Source: Thermodesulfobacterium sp.
GTDB taxonomy: Bacteria > Desulfobacterota > Thermodesulfobacteria > Thermodesulfobacteriales > Thermodesulfobacteriaceae
DNA length: 64,000 bases
Direction: 5' to 3'
Assembly: GCA_017656385.1 (NCBI GenBank)
Contig: JACDNX010000001.1
Location: 62,001-126,000, forward strand
The translations under genes and the position numbers were made by a program. Shown here piece after piece: positions 7,597 through 42,563 of this stretch; position 1 is the stretch's first letter; every line of letters starts with the position of its first letter. Below the pieces are notes generated by a model. It made no database searches. It was not told where the DNA came from and was given only the letters and a program-made list of their open reading frames with translations.

Positions 7597-7707
7597 ATAC
7601 ATTAAACTTGAAAAAATTTCCTCTTACCACCTCTTAAAATAGGAAAAAATTTCTTTATTCTATCAAAAATTCCTCTCTAAAACCCTTTAAAAATCTTATT
7701 TTATTTT

Positions 7708-7723
7708 TGGCATACATCTTGCT
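7708..7723 (+). promoter_or_regulatory. Sigma-54 promoter of the hook operon
   Basis: TGGCAT-N5-TTGCT with the invariant GG and GC dinucleotides separated by exactly ten bases matches the -24/-12 consensus TGGCAC-N5-TTGCA. Transcription would start near 7734, giving a leader of roughly 30 bases before the GTG of fliK at 7763. The setting fits, since sigma-54 commonly drives hook and basal body genes and two sigma-54 activators are encoded in the flagellar cluster at 35-40 kb. Confidence 0.8.
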
Positions 7724-7762
7724 ATTAAAGAAAATAAAAGATTGGATAGAGGGGAGTAAGAG

Positions 7763-9376
7763 GTGATTAAACTGGTAAATTGTTCACCAAATTCTTGTAC
7801 CTTAGCTTCTGACAAAACTTTTTCTAATAAATTTGATGGCAAGATATCTGATTGGTTTCAATTAATTCTTTTAAGTTTGATAGATAAAACTATCTTATCT
7901 GGTGAGAACGATTCAGAAGATAATTTGTTCTCAGAAAAACTTGCTGATGTTTTAAATGACAGCAAAAATTTATCAAAAGAGCTATCAGGAAATAAAGGTT
8001 TAGAAGAGCTAAATCTATCTCTTGGATACATACTCAGAAGTAATATATTTCAACAAAACAACTTTTCTGCTACTTTAAATGAAGATGGTTTAACCAGATC
8101 ACAGAAGATTTCCTTGTGGAATAATTTTATAACCCAATTATTGAATAATTTTAAGACTGAAGAAGAAAAAAATTCCTTTATTGAGGAAATAATTTCCTTT
8201 CTATCTCAACATGAAGGTTTAGAAAGTGAAAGCATTTTTAATTCTCGAATAAATCAAGTTTTAGCCAAAATCTTATCTGAATTTAACGAGAATGAGTTAT
8301 TAGAACTGCAAAATGAGATAGTCGGGAGAACAGATCTTTTAAAACTTCAGGAAAATAAGAAGGTTTTAAATAATGATGTGGTGCCTTCTTTTGAAGATAG
8401 GGCAAAGTGGTTGGAAATTCTTAGGTTATTGAAAGAGCTACAAAGTTTGACAAAGATGCAGAATAGTGATGTTTTAAACTCTCAGGCACAGGTTAATAAT
8501 TTGAATAGAGATAACTTTCAAGGTCTTGTAAATAATTTTCAAATTAATACTGCAGGAAAATTAATTTCAGAAAATAAGAACTTAGAGGAAATTTTAAAAT
8601 CTCAATTAGATAAAGTTGAGAGAAAATCATTTGTAACAGATAATGTAAAATTTTTAAATTCATCTAAAAATTATTCAAATTTAGATGGGCAAAAGGATGG
8701 ACTCAAAGAGTTTTTCAATTTTGATGATATTGTAAGAATTGTAGTTTCAGAGAATGATAATTCAACAAGTAAAAAGGCGGGTTTGTTGAAAAAGAACCTA
8801 AGTTTTTATGATATTTTAAATAAAAGATTTGAAACACAGATAAATCCCTTTCAAAAAATAGTGAATAATGAGTTGGTAAAAAGTGTTTTTGATGTGGAAA
8901 ATGTAAATAAGACCGAAGATATTAAAAATGCTAATTTTTACAGGCTACCTGATACATTTATGGAAATAGTTAAAGATATGGTTTTGGAGATACAACCAGA
9001 AGGTGAAAAGAAGGCTTTAATAAAGCTTGAACCACCAGAGATGGGCTCTCTTGATTTAGAAATAAAAGTAAAAAACAAAGATATAGAAATAGTTGCAAGA
9101 ATTGAAAAGCAGGAAGTGTTACAGGAAATTAAACAAAATTTACATCATATAAAGGCGAGTTTAGAAGAATCGGGATTTAATTTAAAAAATTTTCAATTAC
9201 TTCTGGGGTCTGGATTTGATGGTGGCAGTTTTGTAAAAAATTTTCAAAGAGAGGAAGAAAAATATTTCTATGGAGAAAAGAGTGAAAAAGTAGAAGAAGT
9301 AAATGAAGATACGATAAAGAATGAGGATTTGGTTAAATTTTATAATAAAAAAGGTAACTACTATTATATCGTTTAG
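7763..9376 (+). CDS. fliK: Flagellar hook-length control protein FliK-like
   Basis: A 537-residue, low-complexity, Asn/Lys/Glu-rich protein. The C-terminal domain at about residues 410-480 matches the Flg_hook (FliK C-terminal) pattern: IKLEPPEMGSLDLEIKVKN, then VARIEKQEVLQEIKQNLHHI and ASLEESGFNL. FliK is secreted during hook growth and switches the export gate from hook to filament substrates. The N-terminal 400 residues are poorly conserved in the family and serve as the ruler. The start is a GTG with GGGGAG upstream. It is the first gene of the operon, 14 bases before flgD, and lies behind a sigma-54 promoter. Confidence 0.85.
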   Translation: MIKLVNCSPNSCTLASDKTFSNKFDGKISDWFQLILLSLIDKTILSGENDSEDNLFSEKLADVLNDSKNLSKELSGNKGLEELNLSLGYILRSNIFQQNNFSATLNEDGLTRSQKISLWNNFITQLLNNFKTEEEKNSFIEEIISFLSQHEGLESESIFNSRINQVLAKILSEFNENELLELQNEIVGRTDLLKLQENKKVLNNDVVPSFEDRAKWLEILRLLKELQSLTKMQNSDVLNSQAQVNNLNRDNFQGLVNNFQINTAGKLISENKNLEEILKSQLDKVERKSFVTDNVKFLNSSKNYSNLDGQKDGLKEFFNFDDIVRIVVSENDNSTSKKAGLLKKNLSFYDILNKRFETQINPFQKIVNNELVKSVFDVENVNKTEDIKNANFYRLPDTFMEIVKDMVLEIQPEGEKKALIKLEPPEMGSLDLEIKVKNKDIEIVARIEKQEVLQEIKQNLHHIKASLEESGFNLKNFQLLLGSGFDGGSFVKNFQREEEKYFYGEKSEKVEEVNEDTIKNEDLVKFYNKKGNYYYIV

Positions 9377-9390
9377 AGAGGTGGTGCTAA

Positions 9391-10053
9391 ATGGTGTCTC
9401 AAGTTAGCAATATAAGTGCTACAGGAAATTCTAATACACAGAGGGTTGCTAAAAAGGTTTTAGATATGCAGGACTTCATTCAACTGTTTATTACTCAATT
9501 ACAGTATCAGGATCCTATGAATCCTATAGAAAACAACGAGATGGCGATTCAGCTTGCTCTTTTTAACCAGGTAGATCAGCTTTTTAAAATTAATGAAACA
9601 CTTGATACCTTGGTTAGTATGGCTAAATCTCTTGATTTGGCTTATGTTTCAAATCTTGTTGGTAAAAGAGTAAAAATTGAAAGTAATATAGGAAGAGTAG
9701 AAAATGGAGAGTTTTTAGGAGGAGAATTTACCTTGGAGGAGCCTGTAAATTATTTAGAAATTGTAATAAGAGATAGTAAAGGAAGTTTAATTGACAAACT
9801 ACAACTTAGTGGACTTCAGGCTGGGACTTATAAAATTGACTGGGATGCAACAGATAAAAATGGAAATAAAGTTTCAGATGGTAATTACACATTTTCTATA
9901 GTAATTCCCTATGAAAATACAACCCAAACTATAACCCCTACCATGATAGCCGAGGTAACAGGAGCTAAGCTTGGAGATAATATTCAAATAGTTGTTAATG
10001 ATAACTATACTGTAGATATGGAAAATATAAAAGAATTGATAAGAGGGGAGTAA
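9391..10053 (+). CDS. flgD: Flagellar hook assembly scaffold FlgD
   Basis: A 220-residue protein with the diagnostic N-terminal FlgD segment DFIQLFITQLQYQDPMNP followed by NNEMAIQLALFNQVDQL. The middle holds a FlgD Ig-like/FnIII-type domain with GTYKIDWDATDKNGNKVSDG. FlgD caps the growing hook and is lost afterwards. It lies between fliK and the hook genes with a GAGAGGTGGTG ribosome binding site. The length is normal. Confidence 0.94.
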   Translation: MVSQVSNISATGNSNTQRVAKKVLDMQDFIQLFITQLQYQDPMNPIENNEMAIQLALFNQVDQLFKINETLDTLVSMAKSLDLAYVSNLVGKRVKIESNIGRVENGEFLGGEFTLEEPVNYLEIVIRDSKGSLIDKLQLSGLQAGTYKIDWDATDKNGNKVSDGNYTFSIVIPYENTTQTITPTMIAEVTGAKLGDNIQIVVNDNYTVDMENIKELIRGE

Positions 10054-10055
10054 AT

Positions 10056-11465
10056 ATGGGTGTATTTGGCACTATTTATACATGTTATAGTGGAGTTTGT
10101 ACAGCTACCACAGGTATGAAAGTAGTTGCTGACAATATTGCAAATCTTAATACCACGGGTTTTAAAAGAAGCAGATACGAGTTTGCAAACGAAATAGCTA
10201 CAGCAATTCAAGAAGTATTTGTTAAGGAAAAAGGATTGGGAAGTATGGTAAAAAGCATAAGAACCTTATACACTCAAGGAGGGATTACTACAACTGATGT
10301 TCCCACTGATCTTGCTATTTCTGGTAAAGGATTTTTTATAGTTTCAGACCAAAATGGTAATATTTTCTATACAAGAGATGGGCAGTTTTTTGTAAATGAA
10401 GTTGACGAAAATCACTTTGCCCTTCAAAACAGTCTTGATCTTTATCTTCTTGGTGCTGATCCTGCAGCAACAACTGCAGATTTAACCTCTCTCAGAACAT
10501 ATCTTATTCCAAAAGTAATGCCACCTCAGGGGACAAGTGAAGTAAACCTTCAGGTAATATTTGACAGCAGGAAATCTTTAGAAACTACAGATGATCCTCT
10601 GTGGCAAAATTATGATGCAACCAGAGAAACGGCTCTTGAAGATGGTAAATACGATTTTGTTTGGAGTTTACCTATTTATGACAGTTTGGGTGAACAGAGA
10701 ACCCTTCAACTTTATGCAGACAGAACTTCCAACCCAAATGAATATGAACTTTTAGTTGCTCTTGATGATCCTTCTCTTGATGGAAGGGGGCAAGGTCCTT
10801 ATCAGGGGGCATTTCTTTATGGTATTCTAACCTTTGGAGGAAATGGAGATGTTACAGATGCAAGATTTTGGGAGATTACCGATCCATCCTCTTTTGATCC
10901 CAATGATCCCAATACTAATCCTATGGATTTAACCACACTTGGAAGGCCTCAATTTACTTTAAATATTCAGGGCAACACCCAAACCATAACTTTAGACCTC
11001 GGATTTCAGGTTGAACCAGATGGAAGTATAACCAGAACTTCTTATGCAAGTAAACTTTTAGCCAATCCTTTTGTTCAACTTTATTACAATCAAAATGGAT
11101 ATGCTCAGGGTATTTTTGACAAAATAGAAGTTATTACAGAGGAAGGATTAATCAGAGCTTGGTATACAAATGGACAAAATATAGAAGTAGCCAAAATATT
11201 TTTGGCTGATTTTACTGGATATGAGGACTCTTTAGTAAAAATAGGATCAAACCTTTTTCAGGCAAAAGAAGGCGTAACACCCTTTATATTTGCTCCCGGA
11301 CTTTACAAAAGGGGAAGGCTTATTTCTGGAGCTCTTGAGGGATCTAATGTGGATCTGGCAACAGAATTTATTGATTTAATTGTTTTACAGAGAGCTTTTC
11401 AGAGTAATGTAAGAGCAATTGTTACAGCAGATCAGACCTTGGAAGATTTTTTAAATAAAACATAA
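10056..11465 (+). CDS. flgE: Flagellar hook protein FlgE-family, first copy
   Basis: A 469-residue flagellar rod/hook-family protein. The N-terminal D0 region has ADNIANLNTTGFKRSR, followed by PTDLAISGKGFFIV and YTRDGQF as in hook proteins. A FlaE-type central domain (residues about 155-330) contains PIYDSLGEQRTLQLY. The C-terminal helix EGSNVDLATEFIDLIVLQRA is the other half of D0. It begins two bases after flgD. It is clearly paralogous to the next gene but shorter and diverged in the middle, so the two may build different hook segments or one may be a specialised variant. Which one is the main hook protein cannot be told from sequence alone. Confidence 0.85.
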   Translation: MGVFGTIYTCYSGVCTATTGMKVVADNIANLNTTGFKRSRYEFANEIATAIQEVFVKEKGLGSMVKSIRTLYTQGGITTTDVPTDLAISGKGFFIVSDQNGNIFYTRDGQFFVNEVDENHFALQNSLDLYLLGADPAATTADLTSLRTYLIPKVMPPQGTSEVNLQVIFDSRKSLETTDDPLWQNYDATRETALEDGKYDFVWSLPIYDSLGEQRTLQLYADRTSNPNEYELLVALDDPSLDGRGQGPYQGAFLYGILTFGGNGDVTDARFWEITDPSSFDPNDPNTNPMDLTTLGRPQFTLNIQGNTQTITLDLGFQVEPDGSITRTSYASKLLANPFVQLYYNQNGYAQGIFDKIEVITEEGLIRAWYTNGQNIEVAKIFLADFTGYEDSLVKIGSNLFQAKEGVTPFIFAPGLYKRGRLISGALEGSNVDLATEFIDLIVLQRAFQSNVRAIVTADQTLEDFLNKT

Positions 11466-38802: not shown

Positions 38803-39781
38803 GATTATACTTTTTAAGTTTTTCTATAAAGGTTGTGCGGTTAAGTCCTAACAGTTTAGCAGCCTTTGTTTTTACTCCTTTTGATATTTCAAGAGCTTTT
38901 TTAAGATAATACACTTCTATATCCTTTAAAAGTTTGTTTAATTCAATTCCATCTTCTGAGATCTCTGGAAGAGCATATTTTAGCAACATGTCTTTATCTT
39001 CTGCCAAACTTTCTTTTATTTTGAATTTTAAATCAAAAGAAGGTAAAGAGAGATCTTTCACATCTATGGTATTATTTTCTGAAAGTATAACCAGTCTTTC
39101 TATAAGGTTTTCAAGTTCTCTTATATTACCAGGCCAAGGATAGTTAATAAGTGCTTCCATAGCTTGTGAAGTGAGTTTTTTTTCTTCAATTCCCTCTCTT
39201 TCACATATTTTTTTTAAAAAAAACTGTGCAAGTATTGGAATATCTTCTTTTCTTTCTCTTAGTGGAGGTAATTTTATGGGAATCACATTTAATCTAAAAA
39301 AAAGATCTTCTCTAAATCTTCCTTGCTGAACCTCTTTTTCTAAATCCTTATTAGTAGCAGCAAGTATTCTTACTTCAACTTTTATAGCTTTGTCACTACC
39401 TAATCTTTCTACTTGTTTTTCCTGAATTACTCTTAGAAGCTTAGCCTGTAATTTGGGGCTTAGATCTCCTATTTCATCAAGAAAGATAGTCCCTTTGTGT
39501 GCCTTTTCAAATTTGCCTGGTTTACTTTTTATAGCTCCTGTAAAAGCACCTTTTTCATATCCAAAAAGTTCAGCCTCTAAAAGTTCTTCTGGAATAGCGG
39601 CACAATTTATAGGCACAAAAGGACCTTTTCTTTTACTGCAAAAATGAATATACTTTGCTAAAACTTCTTTACCTGTTCCTGATTCTCCAAGAATAAGGAC
39701 TGTGCTTGAAGATGGAGCAACCTTTTTTACAAGCTCATAAATTTTCTTCATTTTTTGATTGTGAGTTTCCAGTAAATACAT
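38795..39781 (-). CDS. Sigma-54-dependent activator lacking a receiver domain
   Basis: A 328-residue protein made only of an AAA+ sigma-54 interaction domain and a C-terminal Fis-type helix-turn-helix (about 285-328, KAAKLLGLNRTTFIEKLKKY). Walker A GESGTGKE (residues 32-39), GAFTGA (78-83), Walker B TIFLDEIGD and the PGNIREL-type motif (PWPGNIRELENLIE) are intact. With no sensor domain it may be constitutively active or controlled by level or by a partner, as with HrpS or PspF. It opens the regulatory part of the flagellar cluster. Its promoter places +1 at or next to the start codon. Confidence 0.9.
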   Translation of the reverse strand: MYLLETHNQKMKKIYELVKKVAPSSSTVLILGESGTGKEVLAKYIHFCSKRKGPFVPINCAAIPEELLEAELFGYEKGAFTGAIKSKPGKFEKAHKGTIFLDEIGDLSPKLQAKLLRVIQEKQVERLGSDKAIKVEVRILAATNKDLEKEVQQGRFREDLFFRLNVIPIKLPPLRERKEDIPILAQFFLKKICEREGIEEKKLTSQAMEALINYPWPGNIRELENLIERLVILSENNTIDVKDLSLPSFDLKFKIKESLAEDKDMLLKYALPEISEDGIELNKLLKDIEVYYLKKALEISKGVKTKAAKLLGLNRTTFIEKLKKYNLV

Positions 39782-39788
39782 ATTTAAA

Positions 39789-39818
39789 ATTATATCACGA
39801 TTTTGACAGAACTGTCAA
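39789..39818 (-). promoter_or_regulatory. Sigma-70 promoter of the receiver-less activator, near-leaderless
   Basis: On the minus strand, TTGACA (39818-39813) and TATAAT (39794-39789) are separated by 18 bases; both boxes are perfect. The ATG at 39781 lies seven bases after the -10 box, so the mRNA would have zero or one base before the start codon. No ribosome binding site is present. Confidence 0.7.
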
Positions 39819-39819
39819 A
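39802..39819. promoter_or_regulatory. Palindrome overlapping the -35 box
   Basis: TTTGACAG and CTGTCAAA form a perfect eight-base inverted repeat with a two-base AA spacer. It covers the -35 box of the activator promoter on the minus strand, so a dimeric protein bound here would block or modulate transcription of the flagellar regulator. No regulator is identified. Confidence 0.5.
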
Positions 39820-39828
39820 TTTTTGAAA

Positions 39829-41667
39829 TCATTTATTTATATACTTATGAGCGTATTTTCTTACATAATGTCCTTCCAGGACATGAAAAATTCGTATTTT
39901 TTCAAGAAAATTTTTTGAAAAAGATCCAATTGGTAAGAAGATTATTTTTTTACCTTGGGCAGAGGCAAAATGTTTAGCAAATTTAGTGGGAGGACTTTTT
40001 GCTACATAAACTACATATTTTTCTAAGCTATAATCTATTCCAGCTAAAAGGAGTCTTTCTGCTTTATCTTTTGCTATATCAAAGTATGGATCCTCCCAGA
40101 TATCATAAACTCTCATAGGAGGATAGGTAAGCATGAAGCCTCCATATTTTGCCTTTGCGATACCAGGACCAACTACATTTTCTTTTGGATCTGTAGCATA
40201 AAAAGCCATATCAGATTCTTGATGATGCTCCCCGTGCCAGGTGAAGTTCCAAGGATATTTTTCCCTTCCTGTTACTGGATCAGGGTCTTTTTCAAAAATT
40301 ATTACCACTGAACCTGCTTTTGCACGAGAATGGGGGTCTTCTTTGACATAGGGTGTTTCTTCAAAAATCCATTTTCTGATGGTTTCTCTTAAATCCAGAC
40401 CATCTTTTAAAGAGGCAATAAAGGGTTCAACTTTCCTTAAGTTTTCTGTAATAACTTTAAGTCCCTTCTCCATAATCTTTCTTCCAAAAGTTTCAACTAC
40501 TACATCCTCTGGGGGAAAGGAACAGATAACTTTACCAGAAAAGCCCTTCTTAAAAAGCTTTCTTTCTTCCCTTGTAGTAAATCTCTTTAAGAATCTTAAG
40601 CTACTTCTCAGGCTTTTTATTTTCCTGAAAAGTCTTAACCTCTTTGAAGGAAGATTTAAGTCCTCAGGAGAAAGATTTATAAGAGGAAAGGGAGAAACGG
40701 CTTTTTCTTGAAATTCGTAAAAAGTTGCAATTTCCCAGAACCAGAAAGAAAGTTCATCTCCTCCTATTCCCCTTACTGCCAAAAGAAGTGTATAAAGGTC
40801 AGGAATGTATTGACCCTTAATTAAAAGCAGATTTCTTAAAAATTGTCCAAATACCTGAAGATCTTTTGGTGAAAGTTCTGTACCGGTTTCTTTATAATAT
40901 TTTTGTCTTGCTCTCTCAAAGATTTCCTCAAATATGGTAATTCTGTCAAGATAAAAGTTTTCTTCTTCCATCAATCTTTTTCTGTTTTTTTCATACACAC
41001 TTTGAAAATATCCCGGTTCAGAAAGAATTTCTCTAATGCTTTTAGGATGCAAGCTAAAAATTTCTATTTCTTTGGGTATGTTTTTAGGAAGGTATAACAG
41101 TCCTGATGTTAATTCCAGAGCTTTAATTACTCCTTTTACCTGATAAAAAGGTAAAATAACAGCTACAGAACTGTATTTTTGAGAAATCTCACAGATCTTT
41201 TCTGCTATATATTTTTCTCTTTCTGTGATAAATTCTTCAAAAAATGAAAGAGTGGATTCCACATATTTGTTAAATCCAAGGTTTTTAATAAGATAAGGAG
41301 AAAGAGGCATAGAATGGGATAAATTTTCTTGGGGTACTTCTTTTGGGAGATCTATAAAAAATAAAGGTGTATTGGAAAGAAAAGCATATCTTGTTGTCTC
41401 AACTAAAGGGCAGAGAGGTTCCACGATTAGATATTCAGTTTTTTTATCTTTGTATATAAGCGCAACTATAGAGATCTTAGGAAGGTTTTTTACAGCAATT
41501 ATCCATTTTTCTTTTACAAAAAAGGGAAGGGTTATAGCTAAAGCAGAGGGTTTAATTTGGCCTAAAAGTTTTATAATACTTTGAGTAATTTCAAGGTTGC
41601 CAGGAAAGAAAGGCAGAAAGTAAATGGTTGAAATCTTATTTTGAAACTTTTTTTCAATTTTAAGCAT
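39829..41667 (-). CDS. Uncharacterised 612-residue protein paired with a MoxR-type AAA ATPase
   Basis: I do not recognise this protein with confidence. Residues 10-110 alternate strands and helices and include IKPSALAITLPFF, YLIVEPLCPLVETTRYAFL and PLFFIDLPKEV, a pattern reminiscent of DUF5682 and related Tiki/EreA-like proteins, which are also encoded next to MoxR ATPases. Residues 220-380 are helical and strongly charged. The C-terminal part (440-612) has a distinctive His/Glu/Asp stretch WHGEHHQESD at 477-486 and KAKYGGFMLTYPP, suggesting a metal or active site. No signal peptide or membrane helix is evident, so it is probably cytoplasmic. Its start is eight bases after the ATPase gene, so the two are one operon. 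Confidence 0.55.
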   Translation of the reverse strand: MLKIEKKFQNKISTIYFLPFFPGNLEITQSIIKLLGQIKPSALAITLPFFVKEKWIIAVKNLPKISIVALIYKDKKTEYLIVEPLCPLVETTRYAFLSNTPLFFIDLPKEVPQENLSHSMPLSPYLIKNLGFNKYVESTLSFFEEFITEREKYIAEKICEISQKYSSVAVILPFYQVKGVIKALELTSGLLYLPKNIPKEIEIFSLHPKSIREILSEPGYFQSVYEKNRKRLMEEENFYLDRITIFEEIFERARQKYYKETGTELSPKDLQVFGQFLRNLLLIKGQYIPDLYTLLLAVRGIGGDELSFWFWEIATFYEFQEKAVSPFPLINLSPEDLNLPSKRLRLFRKIKSLRSSLRFLKRFTTREERKLFKKGFSGKVICSFPPEDVVVETFGRKIMEKGLKVITENLRKVEPFIASLKDGLDLRETIRKWIFEETPYVKEDPHSRAKAGSVVIIFEKDPDPVTGREKYPWNFTWHGEHHQESDMAFYATDPKENVVGPGIAKAKYGGFMLTYPPMRVYDIWEDPYFDIAKDKAERLLLAGIDYSLEKYVVYVAKSPPTKFAKHFASAQGKKIIFLPIGSFSKNFLEKIRIFHVLEGHYVRKYAHKYINK

Positions 41668-41675
41668 AAAATAAA

Positions 41676-42563
41676 CTAATCTAAGGGACGAAGCAAAGGT
41701 TTAGTGGGCTTTCTATCTTCTAAGAGCTCTTTCAGATACACCAGAGCCTGTGAGCCAAGTATAATTGAAATGGCTTCTTTAAGGAGGGGCAAAAAATCTG
41801 AAGAATTATCAGTAGGTATCTTTAAAAATTTGAGTTTTTTAAGAATGTATCTCCCTATACTTACCCCATCTCTTACACTGTAAAGCTCACCATATTCATG
41901 AGCTATCTGTAAAAATCTGACTATATAATCAAGAAGTCCCTCATCAGCCCATGGTAAATTAGTTTTTAAAATAGCTTTTTCTTCTTCATAAGAGGGAAAG
42001 TCTATAAAGATTTGAGGTTGAAGCCTTGACTGGATATACTCAGGGAGTTCAAATGTTGAAGCATCTTCATTCATAGTAACACATAGTCTAAAATCTGGAT
42101 GTGCTTTTATTTTTATTCCTGCAATAATAGATTCCACATATCTTCTGGCATCAAGAAGAGGAGCAAGAGATGCCCAAGACTTTTCACTCATTCTATTTGC
42201 CTCGTCAATTATAGCTACTTCACCTCTTATCATCGCAGTAACAATTGGACTTGCTACATATCTTATTTTTTTGTCTTCTGAAATCACAGGTGTTATTATG
42301 AGGTCTTCTGGTCGTGTATCCACAGTTGCTTGAAATATGTAAACTTCTTTATTTAATTTTTTGGCAGCAGCATAGGCAAGAGTAGTTTTACCAACCCCTG
42401 GTTTTCCTATAAGACGAGGAGTTAGTGGGATATCCTTTTCATCAAGAACAAGCCAGCAGGCAAGTATTTGTTCAATAACCTCTTCCCGAGGATAAAGAGG
42501 GATATTTAACTCATCAGGATGAGAAAGATATAAAGTTACTCCATCAATTGTAACAGTCTCCAT
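41676..42563 (-). CDS. MoxR/AAA_5-type AAA+ ATPase
   Basis: A 295-residue AAA+ ATPase. Walker A is GKPGVGKTT at residues 53-61, Walker B AIIDEANRM at 117-125, sensor 1 lies in CVTMNEDAS (asparagine 165), and an arginine in QSRLQP (180) may be the finger. The order and the DEANR signature match the MoxR/AAA_5 branch. These ATPases usually remodel a partner protein, often with a von Willebrand A domain protein, but none is encoded here. The only operon partner is the 612-residue gene downstream. A -10-like TATACT lies ten bases before the ATG. Confidence 0.85.
   Translation of the reverse strand: METVTIDGVTLYLSHPDELNIPLYPREEVIEQILACWLVLDEKDIPLTPRLIGKPGVGKTTLAYAAAKKLNKEVYIFQATVDTRPEDLIITPVISEDKKIRYVASPIVTAMIRGEVAIIDEANRMSEKSWASLAPLLDARRYVESIIAGIKIKAHPDFRLCVTMNEDASTFELPEYIQSRLQPQIFIDFPSYEEEKAILKTNLPWADEGLLDYIVRFLQIAHEYGELYSVRDGVSIGRYILKKLKFLKIPTDNSSDFLPLLKEAISIILGSQALVYLKELLEDRKPTKPLLRPLD

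Follow-up and report, generated by a model that had tools for sequence, protein, structure and literature searches.

A MoxR-type ATPase and a 612-residue partner without a detectable von Willebrand A domain form a conserved gene pair in Desulfobacterota

MoxR ATPases have almost always been described with a von Willebrand A (vWA) partner (PMC7159879, PMC13036017). A locus in Thermodesulfobacterium sp., a thermophilic sulfate reducer, raises the question of whether such an ATPase can work with a dedicated partner of another kind, and at what. We analysed 64,000 nucleotides of contig JACDNX010000001.1 (assembly GCA_017656385.1, positions 62,001 to 126,000), a stretch called here the window. In the window, a MoxR-type ATPase gene is followed by a gene encoding a protein of 612 residues, labelled EFF, and no gene for a vWA, SWIM, VMAP or other third component was found beside the pair. 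The original prediction had described an ATPase gene followed eight bases later by a large partner gene; both open reading frames were confirmed on the minus strand, with an intergenic gap of 8 nt (41668-41675). The features of the pair are the following.

41676-42563, minus strand: first gene of the pair, MoxR/AAA_5-type AAA+ ATPase of 295 aa (AAA_5 match)
42384-42407, minus strand: Walker A motif GKPGVGKT of the ATPase, residues 53-60 (sequence; invariant residues in relatives)
39829-41667, minus strand: second gene of the pair, EFF, the 612-aa partner protein (open reading frame; relatives across the phylum)
40963-41667, minus strand: EFF N-terminal domain, residues 1-235, DUF5682/TraB/EreA/ChaN-like (hhalign, motifs, structural matches)
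40708-40962, minus strand: EFF helical region, residues 236-320 (the DUF5682-like stretch reaches about residue 304)
39832-40533, minus strand: EFF C-terminal domain (residues 379-612), best conserved portion of the protein, of no known family (alignment of 25 sequences)
40078-40317, minus strand: core of the C-terminal domain, residues 451-530, GSVVxIF..W.GEH.QESDMAFYAT..GPG...YGGFMLTYPP (alignment)

Chance open reading frames can be excluded, since the longest open run in 500 shuffled versions of the stretch was 159 codons, both genes recur across the phylum and the dN/dS ratios between near relatives are low (0.09-0.14 for EFF and 0.04-0.08 for the ATPase). Strong purifying selection acts on both genes. 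The closest loci are 75-93% identical, which puts the window in Thermodesulfobacterium or in a very close genus.

The ATPase matches the AAA_5 family well above the cut-off (E = 4.5e-20; 72.5 bits for a cut-off of 22). Its Walker B (IIDEANRM) and sensor (TMNED) motifs are intact, and nine residues (G53, P55, G56, G58, K59, T60, D120, E121 and N165) are invariant in 22 relatives, a family in which the mean column identity is 68%. On sequence comparison alone, it aligns with CbbQ and NorQ across the helix-2 insert region of the MoxR clade. We then compared the family profile with known ATPases. Among solved proteins, midasin (about 87 bits) and CbbQ/NorQ (31-37 bits) come nearest, and six DUF5682-linked ATPases of the YehL type score from 0 to 11.5 bits. 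By these scores the protein classifies as a MoxR-type ATPase nearer to midasin and CbbQ/NorQ than to YehL. The likeness to midasin (Rea1) concerns its AAA+ domains; midasin combines six AAA+ units and a part with vWA in a single giant chain, and the ATPase of the pair has one AAA+ unit per chain.

These values bear on the origin of the pair. The DUF5682 operon (YehL-YehM-YehP-YehQ; elsewhere SWIM-DUF5691-AAA-DUF5682-vWA) also has a MoxR-type ATPase gene directly upstream of that of the partner, and the N-terminal 300 residues or so of its partner are homologous to those of EFF. Unlike this operon, the pair has an ATPase of another subfamily, an unrelated C-terminal half in EFF and no vWA, SWIM or DUF5691 gene. 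A trimmed YehL-YehM-YehP-YehQ operon was thus rejected: EFF shares an N-terminal module with DUF5682, but the ATPase comes from another branch. Of the two options left by the original prediction, a reduced or a new system, the first is not tenable for the YehLMPQ type and the second is partly supported. Judged by its profiles, the pair appears as a separate two-gene MoxR module with a dedicated non-vWA partner.

The original prediction also stated that the usual vWA and SWIM partners are absent. This is true of the neighbourhood and almost true of the genome as a whole. Profile searches of this genome detected no CoxE-type vWA protein and no DUF5682 match, and the SWIM search gave one marginal match of 21 residues with an internal stop. 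The only vWA protein is an AAA+/vWA fusion of 621 residues on another contig, which looks like a chelatase subunit of the BchD/ChlD kind and could in principle serve the ATPase. This fusion gene lies on contig 17 of the same genome (G000), at about 7700-10300 (L102, 217-2082), with another AAA_5 match just upstream.

We next considered EFF itself, beginning with its N-terminus. In hhalign comparisons, residues 13-304 align with DUF5682 (96.5%, E = 8.8e-10), and the TraB profile is also matched (83%, E = 8.7e-6). Moreover, 8 of 25 EFF relatives match PF18934 (DUF5682) directly (best E-value, 5.4e-10). The N-terminal 300 residues or so can thus be assigned, by profile, a distant relationship to DUF5682, and through this kinship they probably adopt a TraB/EreA/ChaN-like fold. 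A DUF5682-like N-terminus had been predicted, rightly at the level of the family; for the EFF of the window itself, the Pfam search gave no match up to E = 1. The AlphaFold model of EFF (pLDDT 82.4) places members of the TraB/PrgY, ChaN, EreA/EreC and TIKI superfamily among the best structural matches of the N-terminal domain, with VIA Z scores of 7.2 for ChaN, 7.0 for the HopBA1 protein and 6.0 for EreC, values which, being below 8, are no proof of kinship. The best structural match of all is a subunit of Tetrahymena mitochondrial complex IV (8b6h_DQ, 7w5z_E and 8bqs_DQ; Z 10-12).

The motif order of this superfamily, H..E..(D)..RE..GxxH, is found in most EFF relatives, in the form of five motifs (LPxLHxRLEFA, VELP, FIDRD, RExxMA and VCGLAH). 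Unlike TraB, EreA, ChaN and TIKI, the domain is in EFF only one part of a larger protein, and its histidines are lost in Thermodesulfobacterium and in part in one other genome (G102). In Thermodesulfobacterium, the motif histidines and one glutamate have been lost (LPFFP, ITLP, ILPFYQ), so the N-terminal domain is unlikely to have the activity of the superfamily in the genus of the window.

The C-terminal domain presents the opposite picture. In its core (residues 451-530), 23 of 77 scored positions are invariant across 25 EFF sequences, whereas the N-terminal part is moderately conserved. The WHGEHHQESD stretch singled out in the original prediction is present and forms the core of this most conserved region: W477, G479, E480, E484, S485, D486 and M487 are invariant in the 25 sequences. 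The invariant polar residues of the domain include C382, E387, D388, D461, E480, E484, D486 and H595. The carboxy tail is also well conserved, with a YI-like motif at the end, or within a few residues of it, in nearly all relatives. Since the C-terminal domain is strictly conserved while the motifs of the N-terminal domain are lost in the genus of the window, the former is probably the indispensable part of EFF.

This domain resembles no family that we searched. The EFF of the window has no match in Pfam, NCBIfam, PHROGs or PADLOC, and sequence searches of the PDB returned nothing significant. With Foldseek, neither the full model nor a model of the C-terminal domain (pLDDT 75.6; its alignment was built after leaving out the row of the plasmid record) gave a match at E ≤ 0.001; in VIA alignments of the latter, coverage concerns mainly its helical start. 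RNase H-like proteins (ribosomal S11, the UvrC C-terminal domain, poxvirus resolvase, short Argonautes) account for many of the weak Foldseek matches of the C-terminal domain, and the succession of strands and helices in the prediction would agree with such a fold. An RNase H-like fold is nevertheless a weak lead only, because the E-values exceed 0.5 and confidence in the model is middling. Two other candidates were rejected: a hidden vWA domain (1% probability in the comparison with the vWA profile) and the C-terminal half of DUF5682 (0.2%; the DUF5682 alignment stops at residue 304). The pair gives a function-linked context to a family that, beyond its DUF5682-like N-terminus, is unnamed in the libraries searched. 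It also offers a lead on DUF5682, which no paper in the literature searched mentions by name.

To what extent do the two genes belong together? A survey of neighbours in other genomes had been proposed with the original prediction, and it revealed no loose association. EFF relatives occur in 30 of 148 Desulfobacterota genomes, and a separate search for the ATPase gave matches of at least 244 bits in exactly the same 30 genomes. The sole further ATPase match among the 148 (G131, 146 bits) is itself adjoined by a divergent EFF. The co-occurrence is highly significant (Fisher's test, p of about 5e-32), although this value overstates the independence of the events, as the genomes are related. In 23 of the 30 genomes the genes are close together, with the ATPase first. 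In the seven others (G005, G009, G023, G042, G047, G078 and G083), they are unlinked, lying about 10 kb from each other or on separate contigs, and both are kept. Such retention is the strongest sign that the two genes are tied by function and not simply by proximity. In addition, the distance matrices of the ATPase and EFF are correlated (r = 0.82, against at most 0.28 in 2000 shufflings of the labels), a correlation to which common descent contributes. The ATPase and EFF are therefore a conserved module, gained or lost together in the genomes searched.

In a wider draw, EFF was found in 63 of 395 genomes of the phylum, in one copy each apart from split or broken pieces, and in 28 of the 41 genomes of the class to which the window belongs. 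One genome (G416) carries on contig 179 (14086-14355) an EFF fragment with two internal stops, apparently a decayed copy. Outside Desulfobacterota, sampling covered plasmid, phage and viral collections only. A Neochlamydia plasmid carries both genes, annotated as an AAA family ATPase and a hypothetical protein; the presence of the pair in this amoebal symbiont would argue against a target restricted to sulfate respiration.

How could such a pair work? With modest confidence, we lean towards a single ATP-driven remodelling machine in which a dedicated partner docks in place of the vWA protein. EFF would most likely be an adaptor or a client enzyme of the ATPase. Like CbbQ and NorQ, the ATPase would assemble into a hexameric ring, and EFF would dock on it at the site that the vWA protein occupies in other MoxR systems. 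The C-terminal domain of EFF, perhaps with the conserved carboxy tail, would engage the ring or the target, while the TraB-like N-terminal domain would add binding or, where its histidines are kept, catalysis. ATP turnover would then reshape EFF or a third cellular target. In the NorQ/NorD structures, the partner inserts a finger into the pore of the ring and contacts the post-sensor-1 loop with its C-terminus (PMC13036017); the proposed mechanism is modelled on these structures, and the C-terminal contact is a parallel for what the tail of EFF would do. NorQ/NorD and CbbQ/CbbO resemble the pair: the ATPase is a small AAA_5 protein from the same broad clade, and it is co-encoded with one large dedicated partner. 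Unlike theirs, this partner has no detectable vWA domain, being made of a DUF5682/TraB-like part and an unnamed C-terminal domain, and the similarity between the ATPases is distant (31-37 bits). More tentatively, the pair might represent a separate MoxR branch in which the vWA co-chaperone has been replaced by a protein of TraB/DUF5682 fold with an undescribed C-terminal domain, vWA then being dispensable for MoxR function. If true, an obligate MoxR pair with another partner would show which mechanistic features are general.

A different and rather unlikely reading makes EFF an enzyme, with its active site in the C-terminal domain, and at the same time the client of the ATPase, which would insert a cofactor or restore the active state, as CbbQ-CbbO does for Rubisco. 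Invariant residues of the types C, E, D, H and R cluster in the C-terminal domain, and with so many invariant polar residues this domain could equally be a catalytic one. Obligate pairing would also fit an enzyme with a private chaperone. However, the MoxR chaperones known to act in this way depend on a vWA adaptor, and the pair has no gene for one linked to it; furthermore, the profile searches suggested at the outset for the 612-residue protein matched it to no known enzyme family.

We then investigated whether the surroundings of the pair point to a conflict or anti-phage system with EFF as effector, since defence had been among the roles initially predicted. One locus does so. In the genome with the divergent version (L101, 2400-16900, in G131), the pair lies among genes for ThsB-like TIR, RyR-AAA, TPR, SLATT-like, SLOG/TIR and NB-ARC-TIR proteins, apparently a cluster of conflict genes. 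The ATPase of this divergent pair scores 176 bits against the family profile, its EFF is devoid of the GEHxQESD core, and no further copy of this version was found in the 395 genomes. The patchy distribution (63 of 395 genomes), the plasmid copy of Neochlamydia and two copies that abut prophages could also be expected of a defence system.

Everywhere else, little supports this role, which we regard as improbable. Among 73 proteins encoded beside the pair at 16 loci, housekeeping families predominate (enolase, EF-G, SAICAR synthetase), with no family common to more than three; the PADLOC matches among them are few and of generic kinds, and 25 members of the EFF family have no PADLOC or PHROG match. 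The genes are in single copy, without a variable effector part, and their separation in 7 of 30 genomes is unusual for defence cassettes. Moreover, among 2.9 million viral contigs only 2 carry the family, and no phage record does. The two viral-collection contigs (L063, 368-4583; L064, 125-6926) carry it at the edge of a prophage, where it probably belongs to the host flank. On L063, a phage-type integrase gene begins about 170 bases past the EFF gene. MoxR-vWA ternary conflict systems (VMAP, iSTAND, FtsH, beta-propeller; PMC7159879) likewise join a MoxR ATPase to a further large component, but the pair has neither their vWA component nor a variable effector domain. The function looks like single-copy chromosomal maturation or repair rather than that of a weapon.

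Two other features of the neighbourhood were considered. In two genomes of one genus, a gene that looks by eye like XdhC/CoxI lies 3' of the unlinked ATPase gene (L106, 8837-10781; L108, 217-2412). Such a link, which recalls Cox-type maturation, was not seen beyond these two genomes and was not retained.

Lastly, in Thermodesulfobacterium loci long enough to show it, the pair lies just upstream of a sigma-54 activator gene and of flgB-flgC-fliE-fliF-fliG, but a service in flagellar assembly is highly improbable and was rejected as a general function, because the other genera examined, Thermosulfurimonas among them, have different neighbours and do not show this order, and because a consensus promoter of its own separates the cluster from the pair. 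This promoter, located at 39781-39823 of the window (minus strand) and 5' of the activator gene just named, is a perfect sigma-70 promoter (TTGACA-18-TATAAT with TG), the -35 element of which lies within the palindrome TTTGACAGTTCTGTCAAA. Eight related loci also have the promoter and near-palindrome, which are missing from one other (L058). Since the -10 element ends about 7 nt ahead of the ATG, the transcript of the sigma-54 activator gene may be leaderless.
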